Part shown: piece by piece, positions 39,361 to 61,216 of the stretch
Position numbering within the stretch: position 1 is the first letter of the stretch
Layout of the letters: every line of letters begins with the position of its first letter
NCBI GenBank assembly: GCA_027019405.1
Contig: JALUWO010000020.1
Coordinates: 1 to 64,000, forward strand
Length of the DNA: 64,000 nucleotides
Reading direction: 5' to 3'
Source of the DNA: Candidatus Altimarinota bacterium
GTDB lineage: Bacteria > Patescibacteriota > Gracilibacteria > BD1-5 > UBA6164
Program-made: the position numbers and the translations under genes
The notes under the pieces: generated by a model
The model's database searches: none
Told to the model about the DNA's origin: nothing
Seen by the model: only the letters and a program-made list of their open reading frames with translations

Positions 39361-39945
39361 TTAGTTTTTATCTTTAAAATTTTTTAATAATCATTTTTCT
39401 TCTTTTTTTGATAGAAATCTCCATTTTCCACTTTCAATATCTAGTTTGAAATTTCCAATACTAATTCTAGTTAAACTTAATACTTTTAAAGCTGTATTAA
39501 ATTTAGGATCTTTCATTGCTCAAAAAAGTCTACGAATATGTCTATTTTTTCATTCATTTATTTGAATTCTTAATTTTGTTTTTGCTCATATATTTCATAT
39601 TTTTTCTATTTTTAAGGCTTTTAATATTCAAATAGGTGTTTTTATTCATTTTAAAGCTATATTAATATGTTCTTCTGTAATATGTCATCTAACTAATATT
39701 TCATATGTTTTAATACAACTTCAAGGTTTAGTTAAAAAATTTCAAATTTTTCAATTTTGAGTAAATAATAATAATCATTTTGATTCTAAATCTAATCTTC
39801 AAATTGGCATCCATCAATTATTAAAAGCCCAATCTGGTAAGAGATTGTAAACAGTTTTTCTTCATAGTTCATCAGATCTTGTTACAATATATCCTTTAGG
39901 TTTATTTATTACTAAAAGATTTTCTGAATTATTTTTTATATTCAT
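39361..39945 (-). CDS. pseudouridine synthase, RsuA/RluB/RluF group
   Basis: 194 aa, the catalytic part only (no S4 domain). LLVINKPKGYIVTRSDE, then GRLDLESKGLLLFTQNG with the catalytic Asp, KTYEILVRG, and INEGKNRHIRRLF, the family's RNA-binding/catalytic Arg motif. Converts a uridine of rRNA to pseudouridine. Lack of S4 is a known variant in short members such as RluE. Confidence 0.87.
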
Positions 39946-40088: not shown

Positions 40089-42371
40089 ATGTTTAGAAAA
40101 ATATTTTTGATATTGTTATTATTTTTACTATTTAAAACAAGTTTTGCAAGTAATTTAGAGAATAATTATATTGAAATAAAGCCATGAATTTCTTGGTACT
40201 GGAAGTTATCTAAACCTATAAATAAAAATGATTTAAATTTATCATATAAGTTGTATGATATAGACTTATTTGATAATTCAAAAGAGGATATTTGAAAATT
40301 AAAAAATAAATGAAAAATAGTAATTTGTTATTTCTCAGCTGGTAGTTGGGAAAATTGGAGAGAAGATACAAATAAATTTCCAAACTCTATTTTAGGGAAA
40401 AATTTGGATGGATGGGCTTGAGAAAAATGGTTAGATGTTTCTAGATATAATTTATTTTCTTCTATTATGGAGGATAGAATAAAATTAGCAAAACAAAAAT
40501 GATGTGATGGTGTAGAGCCTGATAATTTAGATGTTTATGATAATAATTCTTGATTTTGAGTTACAAAAAAAGATTCTATTGAATATTTTAAATTTTTAGC
40601 TACTACTGCTCATAAAAATTGATTAGTAATTGCTTTGAAAAATGCACCTGATATTGTAAATGATTTAGTTAATATTGCAGATTTTTCTATTGTTGAATCT
40701 TGTAATAAATATAATGAATGTGATAGATATATTCCATTTATTAAGAAAAATAAAGCAGTACTGAATGTTGAGTATAATTTATCTAAAAATAAGTTTTGTT
40801 CTAAAAATATAGATTTATGATTTAGTCCTGTTAAAGCTTGTTCTTCTTTAAATGGTTGTTGGAATTTATGTAGTAGAAAAAATAATATTGCTTATTCTGA
40901 TAATACAAATAATAATTGAAATACTAATTTTAAACAAAATTCAGATAATAAGTTATGAAGTATATATTTTAATATAAAAAATACTAAATTATATTTTGCT
41001 CCTTATGTTGATTCTACATTGTATCCATTTCCATTAATTTCAGATATTGCAAAAAAAACTTGAAATAAAAATTATATATTAGCTTTTATTACATCAGATA
41101 AATGAAAATGTAATGCTAGTTGGGGTGGATATTATTCTATTGATAAATGACCTGATGCTTGGATAAATAGTAAACATTATTATTTATATGATGAAGTAAA
41201 TAAAGTTAGATCACAGTGAGGAAAAATAATGATTTCATTTGGATGACAAGCTTGAATACCACTTTTTTCAGCTTGTTCAAATGAAGATGATTTAGTAAAA
41301 GAGTATTCAAAAGTAATAGATAAGTTAAAAATTCATGATTTAGATTTTGATGTAGAAGGGGAAGTATTAAATAATAATTTAGCTACTGAAAGACTTATAA
41401 AAGCATTATTTAAATTACAAAACAAATATAATAATAAATTAAATATATATTTTACATTACCTGTAATGCCAGAAGGTCTTACATTAGATTGAAAAAAATT
41501 AGTAGAAAAAATAGTAAAAAATAATTTATTGTATGCTTGAATAAATCTAATGACTATGGATTATGGAAGTTCATATAAACAAGATATGTGAGATTATGCA
41601 ATACAAGCTGTAAATTCTACTATAAATCAATTAAAAACTATTTATCTAAATAGTTGAGTTAGTGTTTCTGAAAGTAAACTAAAATCAATATTGGGAATTA
41701 CTCCAATGATTTGACTTAATGATATTCAATCTGAAAAATTTACATTAGAAGATGCAAGACAAGTTACTCAATATGTTAAATTAAATTGACTAAATAGATT
41801 AGATTATTGGTCATTAAATAGAGATCATCCTTGTGAAAAAAATAATATATCAAATACTTGTAGCTCAAAAAATAATCAAACAAAAGATTTTGAATATACA
41901 AAAACTTTCAAAAATTGATTATGAAATATTGTTATAAATAATAATTGAATTAGTAATAAAAATTGAACAAAAATACAAGCTAATAATAAGGAAAAATCAA
42001 ATAATAATAAATATTATAATTGAAATATTAATCAAACAAGTAATATAAATAATATAGAAAATATTGCTAATGATACTAAAAATAATAAATGGAAAGAAAA
42101 GATTAATAATATTAAGATGGAAAATAAAACTTTTAATAATAAAAAATTAAATAAATATTATCCTTTATTTATAAAATTTTTTAATATTAAAAAGAAAAAG
42201 ATTTTATCAAATATAGGTTATATAAATTCTAAAAATTATAATAATTTAAATTTTTTTGCTAAATATACATTTTGGTTATTTACTGATTTAAATAATAAAT
42301 ATTATAAAAATATAAAATCTTATCTATGAATGTTAAAAAAAGTTATAATTAGTTTGAAGAAGGTTAAATAA
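40089..42371 (+). CDS. secreted GH114-GH18 fusion (polygalactosaminidase-like + chitinase-like)
   Basis: 760 aa. Signal peptide (IFLILLLFLLFKTSFA). Residues ~30-270 match GH114: WYWKL, YDIDLFD, IVICYFSAGSWENWRED, WAGEKWLDV, KGCDGVEPDNLDVYDN and the acid/base-region Glu in VEYNL. Residues ~300-600 are GH18-like: LYFAPYVD, KIMISFGG, then LDFDVEGEV, the D-x-D-x-E catalytic motif, and MTMDYGSS. The last ~150 residues are Asn/Lys-rich repeats with a basic end. Predicted to hydrolyse galactosaminogalactan-type and beta-1,4 amino-sugar polymers, i.e. biofilm or wall material. Substrate inferred. Confidence 0.85.
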
Positions 42372-42375
42372 AATA

Positions 42376-42413
42376 ATAAAAAACTAAAAATATGATATAT
42401 TTTTAGTTTTTTA
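42376..42413 (+). terminator. intrinsic terminator after glycosidase gene
   Basis: AAAAAACTAAAAATAT and ATATTTTTAGTTTTTT arms with a 3-nt loop. Confidence 0.8.
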
Positions 42414-42426
42414 TTTACATTTTTTC

Positions 42427-42488
42427 TTGTCAAAATAAATAAAATATGTATAAATATTTTGCAAAAACAAAAATAAAAATAGGAGGTG
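42427..42488 (+). promoter_or_regulatory. promoter and strong Shine-Dalgarno of Clp-like gene
   Basis: TTGTCA (42427-42432), 16-nt spacer, TATAAA (42449-42454), then AGGAGGTG at 42481-42488, 4 nt before ATG 42493. A full Shine-Dalgarno sequence is exceptional here: most other genes have only A/T before their starts. The same ataggaggtgt string recurs at 58838-58848. Confidence 0.65.
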
Positions 42489-42492
42489 TATT

Positions 42493-44772
42493 ATGCCATG
42501 CTTATCTGTTGGTAATTATATTGAGTATAGAAATACAACTAAAGGTTCTACTAAAAAAGTAGATAAAAAGGTAGTTAAGAATAATGGATCTAAAAAAGCT
42601 TCTACTTATAAAGTTGATTATAAAAAACTTTCTCCAATAGTTGAAGAAATTTTAAGTGATCTTGATAAGGAAATTGTAGGGCAAGAAGAGGCTAAAAAAG
42701 AATTGGGTATTATATTAGCAAATACATTGTTGTATAATCCATCAAATAGAAGACCACTTGCTGTAACAATGTTTCCAGGACCTACAGGAGTAGGAAAGAC
42801 TGCTATTGTACTTGCTTTAGCAAAAATCCTTTATGGTGATCCAAATTTTGATTTGGGTAAATGTAGAATTGCTTGTAATGATTTTCAAGGTTCTCATGAA
42901 ATATCTCAGTTAAAGGGGTCTCCTGCTGGATATGTAGGTTATGGTGATAAACCATTACTTCATCCTGAAAATATTTTTGAAAATACAAATAAAGCTATTG
43001 CAAATAATAGTTTTCATGAAATTTTTCAACAAATTGTTGATAGGGATCCAGAACATTTACCAAATCTTATCTTATTAGATGAGTTTGAAAAAGCACATCC
43101 AGCTTTTAGATCAACTTTTATCAGTATTTTTGATGAGGGGTCTCTTATTTTAAAAGATGGTACAATAGTTGATTTTAGAAACACTATTTTCATTATGACA
43201 TCAAATATTGGTGCAGATGAAATACATGAAAAGCTTGAAGGAAAAGGTTCTATGGGATTTATGAAAGAAAAATTGAATTCTGTAGAAGCTTTTTCAAAAT
43301 CTTATTATAGAGATCTTATTTTAAGAACTAAGATTTTTAGAAAAGAAATGGTAGGTAGATTAGGTATTGTTCCATTTAGACCTTTGACTAAATCTGAGTA
43401 TTTTAAAAGACTTGATATTGAAATTAAAGAGCATAACAAGACTTTTAAACATACAAATATTCCACTAGAGCTTACTTCAAGAGCAAAGGTACATTTGGTA
43501 GAAAATGCTATGGAAAGTAATCTTGGAGCAAGAGTTTTAATTAAGTCTTTTGAACATGATATATTACCTCTTTATTCAAATCTTCTTACAAATGAAGAAA
43601 TTGATAGAAAAGAGAGTGAAATAGGTAAGCAAGTAAAATCTATACTTGTAGATTATGATCTTGAAAAACAAGAATTTACAGGAGATTTACCTACTGATGA
43701 AAATAAAAAGGCTATTAAAAAAGAATTAAAGGAGTTAGCTAGACTTAAAGAAAGACAAAAAAAGCTTAATCAACAAGAAGTTATTATAAGCTTACAGGAT
43801 AAATCATTTATAAAAACTTTTACTTCTGTTATTCTTCCAAATTTACAGTATTATAGAATGCTTGTAAAAGAGAAAGAAGATTTACTTTTTACAGAAGATG
43901 AGCTTAAAAATAATGATATTGATTTCCTGATACAAGAATATAAACAAGATTTGGATTCAGTTAAATCTATTCTTGATGCTTTTGGTATTCAAGAAAGAGA
44001 TTATCAAATTATTGATTCAGATGTTTTATCAAAAGAATATTATAATTTTGCAGAAACATATGATGAACTGAATCTAAGAATTGCAAATGTTAAAGCTTGG
44101 AATGATACAGATGAAATTGTTGCATTTTCTGGTATGTTTAAAATAATAAAAAAATATATAGAGAAACAGTTTCAATCTGAAAGAAAGTCAAATCTGAATT
44201 TCAAACAAATGATAAATGGTGGTGCAGGTACAATAGAGGATGTACTTTATCCATTCATTCATTTTGCAGAAAAACTTATTGAGAGAGAAATTACAGCAAA
44301 AGAAAGGACTATGATTGTTGCTATCTTTCATAAAGAGTTTGTTAGACTGAATGGTAGATCATATAGACCTGCACTTGAAAATCCAGAAAAAAAGAAAAAT
44401 AAGGAGGACAAAACAAAAACAGAAAAAAAAGAAACAGCAAAAACTACTGAACCTAAAAAAGAGATTACTATAAATATCAATTTTTATGGTTCAGAAAATG
44501 TAACAGATTGGAAAACAAAGTTGAAAAATCTGTTTGCTGAGGATTTTGATAAGGTTCTTCTTACTATTAAGCAAAATTTACCAGAGGCTGATAGTAAAGA
44601 GGATATTATAGATATCTTAGGAGCAATTAAAATTGAACTGGAAGGAAAGTTGGGAATTAAACTAACTTCTACTCAGTCAATGGGGCTTCATGAGATAGTG
44701 CAAAATATATTAAAGGAGGATGATATTTTAAAGGATTTAGATGATGATTCTGATGATCCTGAAAAAGAATAA
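42493..44772 (+). CDS. Clp/HSP100-type AAA+ ATPase, UGA-free (probably foreign)
   Basis: 759 aa. One ClpB-D2-like AAA+ module: VGQEEAKKELGIIL, Walker A GPTGVGKT at 96, a pore-loop GSPAGYVGYGD, Walker B LILLDEFEKAH at ~192, IMTSNIG (sensor 1), GRLGIVPFRPL where the arginine finger lies, and ESNLGARVLI (sensor 2). Then ~350 residues of helical region with a charged linker and an acidic tail, without ClpP loop or second AAA ring. A protein unfoldase role is likely; substrate unknown. All 37 glycines are GGN and there is no UGA, whereas lexA nearby uses UGA for 12 of 18. Strong Shine-Dalgarno. Best explained by recent transfer. Confidence 0.8.
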   Translation: MPCLSVGNYIEYRNTTKGSTKKVDKKVVKNNGSKKASTYKVDYKKLSPIVEEILSDLDKEIVGQEEAKKELGIILANTLLYNPSNRRPLAVTMFPGPTGVGKTAIVLALAKILYGDPNFDLGKCRIACNDFQGSHEISQLKGSPAGYVGYGDKPLLHPENIFENTNKAIANNSFHEIFQQIVDRDPEHLPNLILLDEFEKAHPAFRSTFISIFDEGSLILKDGTIVDFRNTIFIMTSNIGADEIHEKLEGKGSMGFMKEKLNSVEAFSKSYYRDLILRTKIFRKEMVGRLGIVPFRPLTKSEYFKRLDIEIKEHNKTFKHTNIPLELTSRAKVHLVENAMESNLGARVLIKSFEHDILPLYSNLLTNEEIDRKESEIGKQVKSILVDYDLEKQEFTGDLPTDENKKAIKKELKELARLKERQKKLNQQEVIISLQDKSFIKTFTSVILPNLQYYRMLVKEKEDLLFTEDELKNNDIDFLIQEYKQDLDSVKSILDAFGIQERDYQIIDSDVLSKEYYNFAETYDELNLRIANVKAWNDTDEIVAFSGMFKIIKKYIEKQFQSERKSNLNFKQMINGGAGTIEDVLYPFIHFAEKLIEREITAKERTMIVAIFHKEFVRLNGRSYRPALENPEKKKNKEDKTKTEKKETAKTTEPKKEITININFYGSENVTDWKTKLKNLFAEDFDKVLLTIKQNLPEADSKEDIIDILGAIKIELEGKLGIKLTSTQSMGLHEIVQNILKEDDILKDLDDDSDDPEKE

Positions 44773-44778
44773 TAAATA

Positions 44779-44816
44779 AGGCCTTGGAGTTTATACTTCA
44801 AGGCTTTAATTTTTGA
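44779..44816 (+). terminator. intrinsic terminator after Clp-like gene
   Basis: GCCTTGGAG and CTTCAAGGC arms (one G-U pair) followed by a T-rich tract. Confidence 0.7.
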
Positions 44817-44822
44817 TTAAAA

Positions 44823-45863
44823 TTATCAATTAGTTCATGATTCTAATATTTCAAAACTTTTATTATAAGAATCAATTTTTCATTTTATTCATATAGGTAA
44901 TGTTATTATAGGATCAGTATGTCATATATCAATTCAAAATAGAATAGGAAAATTATAATTTATAAATTTATTATATATTATTTCTTTTAATAAAGAAATA
45001 TCATTTTCTGTATATCATTTTGGTCTTCATATTATCATTCATGATATTTTATTAAAAATTCATGAGAGTTCTAAATCAGTCAAATGAGTATCAATTCTTG
45101 ATATAGGTTCTCATTTACTTAAATCACAACTACTTTCAGGAATTTCCCAAAAAAACAATGTATTTTTAAAGTTAGGCCAATATTCAGTACCCCTTAAATG
45201 TAGTATTGATGTAATACATCATCACAGAAGAATTCATTCTGCTTTTCATTTTTTTAAAAATTCATATCAATTATTTTTTTTCATTTTTCTAGGTCTATCT
45301 AAATCTTTTTTTTGAAACCAATTTAATAATTCATCAGTCCATTTTTGTGAAGGAAGAATTTTTCAAATACTTTCATTTGATAATAAAGCCTTATAAAAAT
45401 ATTTTTCTGTATATGAAAGCATTTTAGGATATTCTGCAAATTGAGTTAACAGTGCTGGTCAATAATAAGTACATAAATTTGATTTTACATAAAAAGCAAA
45501 ATGTAATACTGTTATATCTGAAAATCAGATAAATATTTTAGGATTATTTTTGATAATTGAATAATCTATATATTTTAATAATTGATTAGAATGGAAACCT
45601 CAAATTGTACATATAATTGCTTTAACATTATTATCTAAAAATAATTCATGAATATCATTTATTCTTTCTTCTATACTTCCAGCTGTATATCAGTTTACTT
45701 TTAAACAGTTTTTAGCAATTTTTACTTTGAATCACATTTTTTTTAGATAGGATATTCAATTTTCAAATCTATGTGGAATCATTCAAGCAATAGGTCATGA
45801 TGGACTTAAAATTCAAATTGTATCTCATTTTTTTAAAATATTTGGTTTTATAAGATTACTCAT
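44823..45863 (-). CDS. LD-carboxypeptidase, peptidase family S66 (LdcA/MccF-like)
   Basis: 346 aa, family length. GDTIGILSPSGPIAG at the start, GYTAGSIEERINDIHELF, AIICTIGGFHSNQLL (oxyanion region), FIGFSDITVLHF (nucleophile Ser in GFSD), and GGCITSILHLRGTEYWPNF with LFFWEIPESS. LdcA removes the terminal D-Ala from recycled murein tetrapeptides; MccF relatives cleave microcin C. The conserved Glu/His follow in the C-terminal domain (FGIDIGHTDPIITLPIG). Confidence 0.88.
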
Positions 45864-45958: not shown

Positions 45959-46363
45959 TTAAGGTGTTAATCTATTTGGTCCTCTATACAAATAAGTTAC
46001 TTCTCTTACATTTTTATAGTTAAGAAGTAACATTAATGAATGGGTTAAACCAAATCCAAATCCACCATGAGCAGGACATCCATATTTAAAACAATCTAAG
46101 TATGATTGCATATTATTAAGTGATAGTCCTTTTTCTTTAGCTTGATTTACTAAAATATCATAATTATGTTCTCTTTGAGCTCCTGTTGTAATTTCAAGAC
46201 CTTTCCAAAGTAGATCATAACTATTAGTAACAGTATTATCAAACTTATTTCTCATATGGTAGAATGGTCGTACACTACTTGGGTATTCTGTAACAAAAAC
46301 AAAATCATGATTGAAGGTTTCTTTAACATACTTTGCTAACAAACGTTCTCCATCAGGATCCAT
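45959..46363 (-). pseudogene. C-terminal fragment of an aspartyl/asparaginyl-tRNA synthetase
   Basis: 134 aa from ATG; the frame is open a further ~22 codons upstream (to a TAA) and the homology includes the extra residues IKDDM. It matches the C-terminal third of non-discriminating/archaeal-type AspRS: DPDGERLLAKYVKE, FVFVTEYPSSVRPFYHMR, GLEITTGAQREHNYD, then motif 3 as GFGFGLTHSLMLLL and GPNRLTP. Motifs 1 and 2 are absent and the motif 3 Glu-Arg is Thr-His-Ser, so it should be inactive. No UGA among ten glycines, and it uses CGT and CGA for Arg, unlike its neighbours. It lies ~125 nt after tRNA-Cys. A relic of transfer is likely; a paralog with a new role is possible. Confidence 0.7.
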
Positions 46364-46488: not shown

Positions 46489-46563
46489 TGGAGGTGCCTA
46501 GCGGAATTGAACCGCTGTAAATGGTGTTGCAGACCACTGTATAAACCACTCTACCAAGGCACC
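46489..46563 (-). tRNA. tRNA-Cys (GCA)
   Basis: 75 nt including encoded CCA. Acceptor arms GGTGCCT and AGGCACC, discriminator U, D arm with GGTAGAGTGG, anticodon loop TCTGCAAC (GCA), and T arm with GGTTCAATTCC. GC-rich stems contrast with the surroundings. It stands alone, with the synthetase fragment downstream on the same strand. Confidence 0.95.
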
Positions 46564-46619
46564 AAAAATCTATTTGCAAAAGGAATTATAAGAAAAAATA
46601 AGATTTTTCAAATTTTTTA

Positions 46620-46668
46620 TTGACTTTATTATAATAAATATATAATAAGAATATATAAAGTATATACT
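46620..46668 (+). promoter_or_regulatory. lexA promoter with candidate operator
   Basis: TTGACT (46620-46625) and TATAAT (46641-46646) with 15-nt spacing. AGTATATACT (46659-46668), a perfect 10-bp palindrome, lies 12 nt before the lexA ATG. LexA usually represses itself, so this is a reasonable operator candidate, but there is no second copy in the window to support it. Confidence 0.45.
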
Positions 46669-46680
46669 AATTTAATAATT

Positions 46681-47310
46681 ATGCTTACAGAAAAACAACA
46701 ACATGTATTAGATACTATTACAGAGTTTATATCAAAATATGGTAAATCTCCAACTATTGAAGAATTACAACATATATTATCTCAAAAATCTAAAAGATGA
46801 GTAGTTCAATATCTAGAAGCTTTAGAAAAAAAAGGTTTTTTAACTAGAGGTAGAGGTTATAGATCTATTAGATTATGAAATTGAGTTTGATTTCAAACTA
46901 CATTAAATATTCCTATTTTATGATATGCAAATGCATGAACTCCTTTAGTTGATGCTCAAGAAAATGAAATGTGAGTTTTGCCTATTTCAAAAAAAATGTT
47001 ATCTTGAAATGTAGATAATTATTTTATTTTAAAAGTAGAAGGAACTTCTATGAATAATTTTGAAGTAGCTTGAAAAAAAATTGAGAATTGAAGTTATATT
47101 CTTGTAAATAGGGAGCAGACTGCTTTAAATAATAAAGATGCATTTTTATTTTTAGTTGATGGAGCTGCTACAATTAAAAAATATAAACAAGATTGAGATA
47201 TTATTTATCTTTTACCTGAATCAAATGATGAATATCATAAACCTATAATATTATCAACAAGTGATAATATTATAGTAAATTGAAAGGTTGTTGATGTTTT
47301 TAGTTTTTAA
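46681..47310 (+). CDS. lexA: LexA SOS repressor
   Basis: 209 aa. N-terminal winged helix (LTEKQQHVLDTITEFISKYG, SPTIEELQHIL). Self-cleavage site Ala85-Gly86 in GYANAGTPL, catalytic Ser123 in EGTSMNN and the Lys166/167 general base in AATIKKY. RecA filaments trigger its autoproteolysis and induce DNA repair. Of its 18 glycines 12 are UGA, including the cleavage-site glycine, which makes it a good reference for the native codon style. Confidence 0.95.
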
Positions 47311-58044: not shown

Positions 58045-58827
58045 ATGAAAGAAATGTTTAGAAATAAAAGTGTATGGTTAGTGATATTATCTTTACTAAT
58101 CTTGATTGTAGCTTTTAATACTTTTACAGAAAGTAAACTAAAAAAGCAAAGACAATTAAAACAAGAAAGATTAGAAAAAATAGTATTGGAACATAACTCT
58201 ACTGTATCTAAAAATAAATCTTTAAAAACTGAAAATCTTCAAAATACTGACTTAAAACAACAAGTAAAAAAAGAAGATTTTATTCACAATAAAGATTTTG
58301 GTAAATCAGAAGCAGAACTAGATGGAGATGTAAAAGCAGAACCATACACAGGACTACTTCCAGAAGCACCAGATATGGAAGAAAATGATGCAACACTTCT
58401 TGGTATAGACTCAAACAACAATGGAGTCAGAGATGATATAGAAATAGAAATAGTAGACAGATTTGGAGAAGACAAAAATCTAGTTGAAGCATTTTTTGCC
58501 AGCAACAGATCCTCACAATATGCCTACTCTCTAGCTGAAAATGACATGCTAACTGAAGAAAATATCCAGAGAATTATGGATAATGTTAATTATGATGTAG
58601 GTTGTAGTGCTTTATATTTTAGAAAATCTAAATATGGAAGTAATCATGAAGATTATTACACTGTATCTAAAAATATAGAATATGAAGAAATAAATACAAA
58701 TAAGAGAAAAGAGATAGAAAAAAGAATAGCACATTCTTTTTCAGGAGGTGGAGGAGACACTAATATTAGTGAAAAGTCTTGTCAAAAATATTTTGAAAAG
58801 ACAAGAGGTTTTGAAATAATAAGATAA
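58045..58827 (+). CDS. membrane-anchored/secreted protein with EF-hand-like DxNxNGxRDD motif, UGA-free
   Basis: 260 aa. N-terminal TM at ~10-26 followed by a charged coiled stretch. The sequence LGIDSNNNGVRDDIEIEI at ~119 resembles a calcium-binding dockerin/EF-hand-like loop. A C-terminal helical part has two Cys (DVGCSALYF and KSCQKYF). Proteins with lGiDsNnNGvRDDiE are common in proteobacteria, including Campylobacterota. All glycines are GGN and no UGA occurs. Strong Shine-Dalgarno. Same-strand partner 118 nt downstream. Function unknown; foreign origin inferred. Confidence 0.65.
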   Translation: MKEMFRNKSVWLVILSLLILIVAFNTFTESKLKKQRQLKQERLEKIVLEHNSTVSKNKSLKTENLQNTDLKQQVKKEDFIHNKDFGKSEAELDGDVKAEPYTGLLPEAPDMEENDATLLGIDSNNNGVRDDIEIEIVDRFGEDKNLVEAFFASNRSSQYAYSLAENDMLTEENIQRIMDNVNYDVGCSALYFRKSKYGSNHEDYYTVSKNIEYEEINTNKRKEIEKRIAHSFSGGGGDTNISEKSCQKYFEKTRGFEIIR

Positions 58828-58839
58828 AAAAATCTAAAT

Positions 58840-58857
58840 AGGAGGTGTGAAATGTAA
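58840..58857 (+). other. Shine-Dalgarno followed by ATG-TAA (minimal or decayed ORF)
   Basis: AGGAGGTG (58840-58847) is ideally spaced from ATG 58852, which is followed at once by TAA and TAG. The string ataggaggtgt is the same as before the Clp-like gene at 42479. It may be the stump of a lost gene, or a start-stop element acting on the downstream gene. 58858-58932 codes for nothing else. Confidence 0.5.
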
Positions 58858-58945
58858 TAGATAATTTTCTAGAAAACAAATACAAAAACAAATGGTGCTT
58901 ATGTAAATAAGCTAAAAAACTTTCAAAAAACTAGAAGGATTTGAA

Positions 58946-61216
58946 ATGAAAACAAAAACAAACTTAGTGATTATTATATCACTGGTTATAGGAATGCTGT
59001 CTTTTGCAAATGCAGAAGTAAAAAATTATTATGTTAATGGTATTGATAATACACTAAAAGAAGCAAGAAAATCTTCAGAAAAAATAGAAACTATTACTGG
59101 ATTAAAAATGCAAAAACCTTTGTATAACACAACACAAGGTGTTGCTAGAGATTTAGGTGAGTCTATTAGAATGGTTACAAATTTTGATAATTTATATAAA
59201 CTTTTAGTTCCAATTATGAATACTGCTCAGCTATCTACTGATACTTTAAAATCATATGCTGAAAAGTATAAAGATGAAACTTTTCAAGAAATAGCTTTGA
59301 AACTTGCAAAAATACAAGCTCTTGAAAAATTACAAAGTAATAAAGAGTATATCAGAGATTTGTATTCTCAAACACAAGTTTGTACAGGTCCTGGAACATA
59401 CTTAGGTCCAGATGGAGAAGTGGTATGTACTATAAATAATAGTTTGATGCCAAAATTTGAAGATTTGGGTATTAGTAAAATTGAAGTTGAAACATTGTTT
59501 GTAAAAGCTGGAGCATATCAACTTGTTGAAGATATCTCATCATTGTATTCAGATGTCTATAGGTATTTGAATTATGAAAATAGTTATGAAAATACAGACT
59601 TAATAAAAGCAAGTAATATTGTTCAATCTGAAATAGATAAAGGTAATAAAATAAATATTGTAGCTCATTCTCAAGGTAATTTGATGGCAAATGAAATGTT
59701 TGACAATTATATAAATGTTACTAGAAAAGATGCTAGAATGTATTCAGTAGCTACACCAGCTAATAAAGTATTTGGTGAAAGTTATGGAAATGGTTATATA
59801 ACATTGCATGAAGATATTGTTGCATTAGGATTTGTTGGTTCATTACCTAGTAATTATACAAATCATACTAGTTCAACTCTTAATCAATGCTCTGGACCAG
59901 GAACATATTTAAATTCAGATGGAACCCCTGTTTGTACAGATTATACAGCTTACAATATAGTAAAATATGATGATCCAAGGGGACATAATTTAGTAAATGT
60001 GTATTTAAAAGAAGGTACTGGTTCTAGACAAATCATTAAAGATGCATTTATTGCAAATTATAATGAGCTAAAGGCTTTGGATACTTCTAAAGTAGATTAT
60101 AATATTACATTAGGAGAAACAAGAAATTCTAGTTGGGATCTTAGTCAATTAGATCATTCACAAAATGAAATATACAATCTTTATGTTCCTTCATGTAGAA
60201 AGGTTAGAATTGATTTAAAATCATCTCAAGTAGATACATTTTTAGAATTAGTTAGAGATGATGTTTTAATTGCTTATGATAATGATTCTGGTTATGGAAA
60301 TAGAGCAAGAATAATTACAGATTTAGCAGAAGGTTATTATGAGATTTACCCTACAATTTATCAAGATAGAGATAATAATGTTCCTAGTCCATTGATTAGA
60401 GCAGATTATGAACTTGTTACTCAAGATTTGGGTGAAGGAAATTGTACAGTAAGAAAATCTGATTTTTATGTTACTGATGCTAAAATGGTAAATAAAAATG
60501 CAATTGCTCCAGGAGCTAATCTAACTGTTAGTTCTTATCAAAGATATAAAGGAAATGTAGAATCTAAAAATTTACCACATTATCCTAAATTGGCATATTT
60601 TTTATCAAAAGATCAAAATCTTGATCCTGATGATATACTTTTAAGTACAGATGTGTCATCTATTGGATCAGATGATTTATATGATAATGAAAAAGAAGTA
60701 CTTACTATTCCTACAGATACTAAATCAGGTAAATATTATATTTTATTTGTTGCAAATTTTTATCCTGTAATATTAGAAACAGATTTTAGTAACAATATTA
60801 TGGCTGTGAAAATTGATGTAGGAGAACCAATTAGTGATATTTATATTGCTAATGCAAAAGTTAATACTGATGTATTAGATGTTGGAGATAGATTAAAAAT
60901 ATATTCTGATATAAGTTATACTGGAAATCAAACCAAAAAATTTGTAGGTCCTGTTTATACATCTTATTATTTTGTTGATTCAAATAATACAAAAACTTTG
61001 ATAGGATATGATTATTCTACAATAGGTTCTGATGATTTATTTGATGATGAATATATAAGTTTTAAAATACCAGAAAATACAGCAAAAGGTAAAGGTTATA
61101 TACTTATTCTTACTGATTATAAAGATGAGAAAAAGTATATAAATGAAATCAATGAAGATAATAATTTAAAAAAGATTGATATCTGGATAGGTGAAATTGA
61201 ACCTATACCTATGTAA
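58946..61216 (+). CDS. secreted lipase-like protein with two CARDB-type domains, UGA-free
   Basis: 756 aa. Signal peptide (MKTKTNLVIIISLVIGMLSFANA split at the Ala-x-Ala). Residues ~25-350 form an alpha/beta hydrolase-like region: YYVNGI near the start and NIVAHSQGN with GxSxG-type Ser242. The insert motif C-T/S-GPGTYL-x3-DG-x2-VCT occurs twice (~147 and ~314). A beta domain follows at ~390-490, then two CARDB-like adhesion domains starting near 507 (FYVTDAKMV) and 633 (IYIANAKVN). No UGA, all GGN glycines, and Shine-Dalgarno AGAAGG. Possibly a secreted esterase/adhesin from a Campylobacterota-like donor; the donor is inferred. Confidence 0.7.
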   Translation: MKTKTNLVIIISLVIGMLSFANAEVKNYYVNGIDNTLKEARKSSEKIETITGLKMQKPLYNTTQGVARDLGESIRMVTNFDNLYKLLVPIMNTAQLSTDTLKSYAEKYKDETFQEIALKLAKIQALEKLQSNKEYIRDLYSQTQVCTGPGTYLGPDGEVVCTINNSLMPKFEDLGISKIEVETLFVKAGAYQLVEDISSLYSDVYRYLNYENSYENTDLIKASNIVQSEIDKGNKINIVAHSQGNLMANEMFDNYINVTRKDARMYSVATPANKVFGESYGNGYITLHEDIVALGFVGSLPSNYTNHTSSTLNQCSGPGTYLNSDGTPVCTDYTAYNIVKYDDPRGHNLVNVYLKEGTGSRQIIKDAFIANYNELKALDTSKVDYNITLGETRNSSWDLSQLDHSQNEIYNLYVPSCRKVRIDLKSSQVDTFLELVRDDVLIAYDNDSGYGNRARIITDLAEGYYEIYPTIYQDRDNNVPSPLIRADYELVTQDLGEGNCTVRKSDFYVTDAKMVNKNAIAPGANLTVSSYQRYKGNVESKNLPHYPKLAYFLSKDQNLDPDDILLSTDVSSIGSDDLYDNEKEVLTIPTDTKSGKYYILFVANFYPVILETDFSNNIMAVKIDVGEPISDIYIANAKVNTDVLDVGDRLKIYSDISYTGNQTKKFVGPVYTSYYFVDSNNTKTLIGYDYSTIGSDDLFDDEYISFKIPENTAKGKGYILILTDYKDEKKYINEINEDNNLKKIDIWIGEIEPIPM

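Follow-up and report, generated by a model that had tools for sequence, protein, structure and literature searches.

A UGA-free gene for a Clp-type AAA+ ATPase, probably acquired recently, in a bacterial chromosome that reads UGA as glycine

Genes recently transferred into recoded genomes lack the reassigned codon, and their composition and ribosome-binding site depart from those of the recipient. Phages of Gracilibacteria and Absconditabacteria that are compatible with code 11 likewise carry no in-frame UGA and are readable in both codes (PMC10746230). Recoding has been proposed, and discussed, as a possible hindrance to gene exchange (PMC8080830), and SR1 is already known to be without the conserved CCUCC core of the anti-Shine-Dalgarno sequence (PMC10783764). 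The gene described here, encoding a Clp-like AAA+ ATPase in a code-25 bacterium, shares with these systems the complete lack of UGA. Whereas the code-11-compatible phages are phage genomes (PMC10746230), the present case concerns single chromosomal genes without phage context, and compared with known transfers into recoded genomes, the class to which the gene belongs is genome-wide, nearly discrete and doubly marked, the second mark being a Shine-Dalgarno (SD) site. In the largely open-access literature that we searched, no description of such a doubly marked import class in code-25 bacteria was found.

The gene lies in a window of 64,000 nucleotides at the start of the 109,264-bp contig C20 of a Candidatus Altimarinota bacterium, whose bin (G000) comprises 2.70 Mb in 504 contigs. 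The initial annotation had described an open, UGA-free frame that reads identically in both codes and is preceded by a full SD; both are present, the frame giving the same translation with tables 11 and 25 and the SD reading AGGAGGTG (Table 1). All 37 glycine codons are of the GGN type (21 GGT, 12 GGA, 4 GGG, no GGC). Gaps of 121 and 50 bp separate the gene from its upstream and downstream neighbors. Of the flanking terminators claimed earlier, the downstream one stands as a terminator-like hairpin (one such site found against 0.4 expected), while the upstream one is merely an A/T stem-loop, possibly a weak terminator. The −35/−10 pair, TTGTCA-16-TATAAA picked by eye, proved not to be meaningful, with 15 promoter-like sites in the region against 16.4 expected. 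Direct repeats at the ends of the insertion were looked for and none was convincing.

Table 1. Features of the ATPase locus and of other UGA-free genes; coordinates refer to the window except for the dapD loci
Feature	Position	Strand	Remarks
Upstream neighbor, GH114-like glycoside hydrolase	40089..42371	+	native-coded, 29 UGA / 14 GGN; no G017 counterpart
Inverted repeat, perfect, 19 nt, loop 3, nearly all A/T	42375..42415	+	between GH114 gene and ATPase gene
SD site AGGAGGTG	42481..42488	+	4 nt 5' of ATG
UGA-free gene, single-ring Clp/Hsp100-type AAA+ ATPase with new C-terminal region	42493..44772	+	759 aa, TAA TAA end
AAA_2 + ClpB_D2-small ATPase module, residues 87-372	42751..43608	+	Pfam; core modelled at pLDDT ~80
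Lineage-specific C-terminal region, residues 400-759 (~360), mostly helical	43690..44769	+	conservation limited to two relatives
Intrinsic terminator-like hairpin, 14 pairs followed by a T run	44777..44808	+	3' of ATPase gene
Downstream neighbor, S66 LD-carboxypeptidase	44823..45863	-	native-coded, 27 UGA / 3 GGN; no G017 counterpart
UGA-free ORF, C-terminal third of aspartate-tRNA(Asn) ligase-like protein	45959..46363	-	beside tRNA-Cys
Second UGA-free island, 260-aa + 756-aa genes	58045..61216	+	SD before each
dapD loci	L270:12931-14187, L280:1240-2649, L282:1354-2406, L283:1234-2304, L284:1024-2088		

The bin is contaminated by short, AT-rich contigs of standard-code, SD-using kind (for example L038, L049, L050, L053 and L065) with GC contents of 0.26-0.32, and its 2.7 Mb compares with ~1.2 Mb in most relatives. 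All statistics were therefore limited to the long UGA-using contigs (0.93 Mb), with the contaminant short contigs excluded; the gene counts rest on the 668 complete ORFs that span 100 codons or more and contain 8 or more glycine codons. On these contigs UGA accounts for 75.8% of glycine codons (12546/16561), a higher share than the earlier estimate of about two thirds. The claim that 37 glycines without a single UGA lie beyond chance is borne out, with a probability of 1.7e-23 at the genome rate and of 1.7e-3 even at the rate of the EF-Tu gene (6/38). The distribution of the UGA share per gene is bimodal: 12 of the 668 genes stand at zero, one gene falls between zero and 0.1, and the mode is at 0.8-0.9. 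A tRNA with anticodon UCA on contig C269, called tRNA-SeC by ARAGORN, is read here as tRNA-Gly.

Genes with a low but non-zero UGA share and no SD mostly encode ribosomal proteins, EF-Tu and the like, named from their sequences. Besides EF-Tu (C78 2284-3474, L267), they include a ribosomal protein L1-like gene with 1/19 and several other ribosomal protein genes below 0.3; ribosomal genes are found on C78, C386 and C206. This avoidance in presumably highly expressed native genes suggests that decoding works less well for UGA than for GGN, and the ATPase gene might accordingly be native and highly expressed, its codon choice reflecting poor decoding of UGA-Gly; a zero-UGA peroxiredoxin gene without SD (C386:2688-3344) fits such expression-linked choice. 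As a rule, however, highly expressed native genes contain some UGA, have no SD and are low in NNG, and the ATPase gene is the opposite in each respect, its NNG share of NNR codons (0.194) being higher than that of 532 of 533 native genes. Of the 241 genes that have 25 glycines or more, moreover, only four are at zero UGA, the next being EF-Tu at 0.16, and the ATPase gene has no orthologue in G017, a relative assembled in a single 1.34-Mb contig. We consider high expression a highly improbable cause of the missing UGA and rejected it for this gene on the strength of its SD and its NNG share; lowered UGA use through expression is a class distinct from that of the UGA-free SD genes.

The genome-wide listing of UGA-free genes with their SD status, which the initial annotation had proposed, revealed a strong linkage. 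With an SD defined as a match of at least 5 nt, such a site precedes 9 of the 12 zero-UGA genes and 6 of the 656 others (p=2e-14); UGA-free genes are thus rare and tied to the SD, not common and unlinked to origin. The combined state occurs in 9/668 genes. Mean duplex energies with the canonical anti-SD are -7.0 kcal/mol for zero-UGA genes and +0.1 kcal/mol for the others. The 16S genes of six relatives end in CTATCTCCTTA in place of CACCTCCTTA (loci L346-L351, 3' ends GGACTATCTCCTTA where GGATCACCTCCTTA is canonical); since the bin contains no 16S gene, the anti-SD was taken from these relatives. The anti-SD of the lineage has an altered CCUCC core, in keeping with native genes being almost devoid of SD sites. 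For the ATPase SD, the pairing energy is -14.1 kcal/mol when the anti-SD is canonical, compared with -10.0 kcal/mol for that of the code-25 relatives. In G017, used as a control and read over 1.2 Mb, 33 of 830 genes lack UGA, among them genes for PurL-, adenylosuccinate-lyase- and DapD-like proteins. Some ribosomal protein genes are included as well, which means that the class there does not consist of imports alone. An SD precedes 9/33 of the UGA-free genes compared with 20/797 others (p=5e-7), a linkage weaker than in the window genome, partly because several of the UGA-free genes in G017 are ribosomal protein genes or have wrongly placed starts. In codon use, the ATPase gene, with many G-ending and few C-ending codons, departs from native genes and from several other UGA-free genes; as codon use differs among the UGA-free genes, there were probably several donors. 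GC3 of the ATPase gene (0.13) is close to the native value (0.07), and composition alone is weak evidence.

The window is largely colinear between 14 and 58 kb with G017 at 923-973 kb. The ATPase gene, absent from G017, falls into a gap in this colinearity, whose edges are a pseudouridine-synthase-like gene (39361-39945; G017 950925) and lexA (46507-47310; G017 934361). This variable gap also holds the GH114 and S66 genes, the UGA-free aspartate-tRNA(Asn) ligase fragment and a tRNA-Cys gene; with both flanking genes missing from G017 as well, the exact boundaries of the insertion are undefined. Reciprocal best hits between the genomes are enriched among UGA-using genes, significantly when counted in G017 (p=0.007) and at a borderline level in G000 (p=0.08). 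With many short UGA-free, SD-bearing contigs in an oversized bin, the gene of a contaminating standard-code bacterium might have been misjoined to the contig during assembly or binning. UGA-rich genes at close range on both sides, the colinear match of the 109-kb contig to an independent genome to either side of the gene, and the presence of a UGA-free gene amid UGA-rich genes also in G044 and in the single contig of G017 make such an artefact extremely improbable.

Relatives of the protein were searched in 353 genomes of the class and 380 of the phylum. The family has three carriers, all of one GTDB family: among the class genomes, the whole protein occurs in only two others, G044 and G019, and the matches in G286 and G387 are weak, partial and not convincing. 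The closest relative, at 42-44% identity, is encoded by G044, a code-25 genome, in a gene that is itself UGA-free, preceded by the SD AAGGA and flanked by UGA-rich genes; the nearest homologue thus lacks UGA too and does not count against a foreign origin in the way that vertically inherited, UGA-using homologues, named in the initial annotation, would have done. The G019 relative (32-35% identity) has 36-39 UGA codons and little SD. Nineteen glycine columns are common to all three proteins; in these, the window and G044 genes use GGN in 19/19 and the G019 gene UGA in 19/19. Gene neighborhoods differ among the three genomes. We read the G019 gene as an old, naturalized copy and the window and G044 genes as separate recent arrivals. 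A donor with the C-terminal region was not found, genome contigs outside the phylum being searched by short peptide patterns only, which gave no match or generic Clp cores. An AAA+ gene on contig C27 that had been taken for a UGA-free paralogue was rejected, because C27 is one of the short standard-code contaminant contigs.

A different reading of the two UGA-free family members, raised in the initial annotation, is that selection keeps the gene readable in both codes because it rides on an element, be it a phage, a plasmid, or conjugative or host-injected DNA, that is read in standard-code and code-25 cells. Dual-code phages do exist, many predicted Gracilibacteria phages being UGA-free (PMC10746230), and the window gene and its G044 relative both lack UGA despite an identity of 42%. 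Described Gracilibacteria prophages, however, are all UGA-rich (PMC10746230), and the third family member, in G019, uses UGA freely. No phage or plasmid genes lie beside the ATPase gene, whose setting is ordinary and chromosomal, and neither the C-terminal region nor a full-length relative was found in the phage, plasmid and viral collections searched. The foreign SD and codon bias are still present and argue for youth and not for maintained dual reading. The proposal of a gene deliberately kept legible on a mobile element is hence unsupported, and we regard it as very unlikely.

We conclude, with a probability of about 0.93, that the ATPase gene was recently acquired from an AT-rich, standard-code, SD-using bacterium. 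This reading is based on zero UGA, the strong SD and its canonical anti-SD pairing, the atypical codons, the absence from a colinear relative, and the existence of a rare class of UGA-free genes tied to the SD; the suggestion of a newly acquired gene is supported accordingly. Both the type of donor and the recency of transfer are inferred. The donor would have been an AT-rich bacterium with the standard code and canonical SD initiation, from which a single gene or a short piece would have entered the code-25 Gracilibacteria-type chromosome and landed at a variable site between two vertically inherited blocks. It would have been translatable unchanged, because a UGA-free coding sequence reads alike in both codes and TAA-TAA still stops, and UGA codons would have yet to drift in. 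As a counterpoint, the two UGA-free family members both come from recoded genomes, a situation that long persistence under a ban on UGA could explain as well.

The Clp-like AAA+ identity given to the product was confirmed by Pfam, with scores above the cut-offs for AAA_2 (PF07724, 86.4 bits against 27) and ClpB_D2-small (PF10431, 30.1 against 21.9), domains that it shares with the D2 module of the Hsp100 proteins ClpC, ClpA and ClpB. The module contains a Walker A motif (GPTGVGKT), a Walker B motif (LILLDEFEKAH), an arginine-finger-like R289 and a sensor-2 GAR, all four elements kept in the three family members in a by-eye alignment. Near the position of the IGF/IGL-type ClpP-binding loop of ClpC and ClpA lies a tripeptide, MGF in the window protein and in G019 and VGM in G044; the ClpC alignment is gapped there. 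Among solved structures, ClpC and ClpB come closest in sequence, and ClpC1 and ClpB NBD2 in fold. Unlike ClpC, ClpA and ClpB, the window protein has one ATPase module and is without N-domain, D1 and middle domain, and none of the named families ClpA, ClpB, ClpC and ClpV accommodates it, the best NCBIfam equivalog scoring 158.5 bits against a cut-off of 884.95 (ClpV1). Its C-terminal ~360 residues, again unlike ClpA, ClpB and ClpC, have no relatives in Pfam, the PDB or the searched genomes beyond the three carriers, and the confidence of their fold prediction is too low to interpret. Judged from its motifs, the protein may form a hexameric, one-ring unfoldase of the Clp/Hsp100 type whose C-terminal region would pick substrates and hand them to the cell's own ClpP. 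We put this assignment forward tentatively, at slightly less than even odds, as the likeliest role in view of the ClpP-loop-like MGF and of a native-coded ClpP in the genome (C17:35094-35714, 48% identity to E. coli ClpP). A ClpP-independent remodeller and a defence-type ATPase are, taken together, possible roles that we hold at somewhat less than even odds. Matches to the defence ATPases DolB and PDC-M37B (PADLOC) are confined to the common AAA+ core, and no DolB or PDC-M37B partner genes are apparent among the neighbors.

Contig C20 carries four further UGA-free genes, three in the window (45959-46363, 58045-58827 and 58946-61216) and one at contig position 98975-99634. The first, next to tRNA-Cys, is probably a truncated foreign fragment; the last, a cytochrome c gene (L036:14975-15634), adjoins tRNA-Phe, and tRNA genes may mark import sites. 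In the second island, the 756-aa protein has a signal-peptide-like start and, by eye, lipase-like and CARDB-like parts, and its relatives in G015 and G016 are likewise UGA-free and form a similar pair. G017 has a different UGA-free gene (922135-922872) at this site, between PBP-like and very large genes, making the site a possible import hotspot. Elsewhere in the bin, a UGA-free amidase-like gene on C144 (52885-53667, L275) looks broken and a related copy on C269 (L276:149-910) is intact; seemingly, some imports degenerate while others become established.

The gene dapD recurs in five code-25 genomes of one family, at apparently different loci that all lie between UGA-using genes. These copies are UGA-free, except that G012 has one near-terminal UGA at a probable old stop, and a good SD precedes four of the five. 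Two types can be distinguished. The G000 and G019 copies are 2rij-like, the former matching nearly the full length of 2rij, which we take to be a Campylobacter jejuni protein; for the G012 and G017 copies the match is to the DapD_gpp model, presumably the gamma-proteobacterial type to judge by its name, and runs end to end with a score just below the cut-off. The genes flanking dapD in G000 (C125:12931-14187) are ~10 bp apart in G017, and those flanking the G044 copy ~25 bp, which makes these two insertions cleaner cases than that of the ATPase gene. Within this one family, dapD has apparently been imported on several occasions and at different sites. Together with a nitronate monooxygenase of the UGA-free class that is 58% identical to a Fusobacterium sequence, the dapD matches hint at sources outside the lineage. 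Some UGA-free SD genes might instead be kept so by selection, being expressed in both an epibiont and its standard-code host, or shuttling between them; on this reading, which we consider very unlikely, dapD would be the leading candidate, with the Clp-like gene as a second one. The near-terminal UGA of a dapD copy (codon 346, L283) is one of three candidate fossil stops, in which the sole or first UGA of an import would sit at the conserved protein end, now read as glycine and followed by a short added tail; the others are L040:9474-10079 (codon 194) and L272:7325-8785 (codon 441). Genome-wide, the trend toward a first UGA near the C-terminus is not significant (3/13, p=0.13).

In most bacteria, recent transfer has to be guessed from blurred signals of composition. 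In code-25 bacteria zero UGA is a nearly yes/no mark of import and the SD a second mark, and this double mark allows recent imports to be catalogued in each genome even when the donor is not known. The mechanism of horizontal transfer is ordinary; the legibility of its mark is unusual. UGA is missing from about 2-4% of the genes in the window genome and in G017. Most of these are probably imports, and inward gene flow seems to continue despite recoding. The doubly marked class and the repeated import of dapD merit follow-up more than the ATPase gene alone. With these marks it becomes testable which hosts are used by uncultured epibionts or predators, whose DNA the imports may carry, and whether recoding really shuts a lineage off from gene flow.
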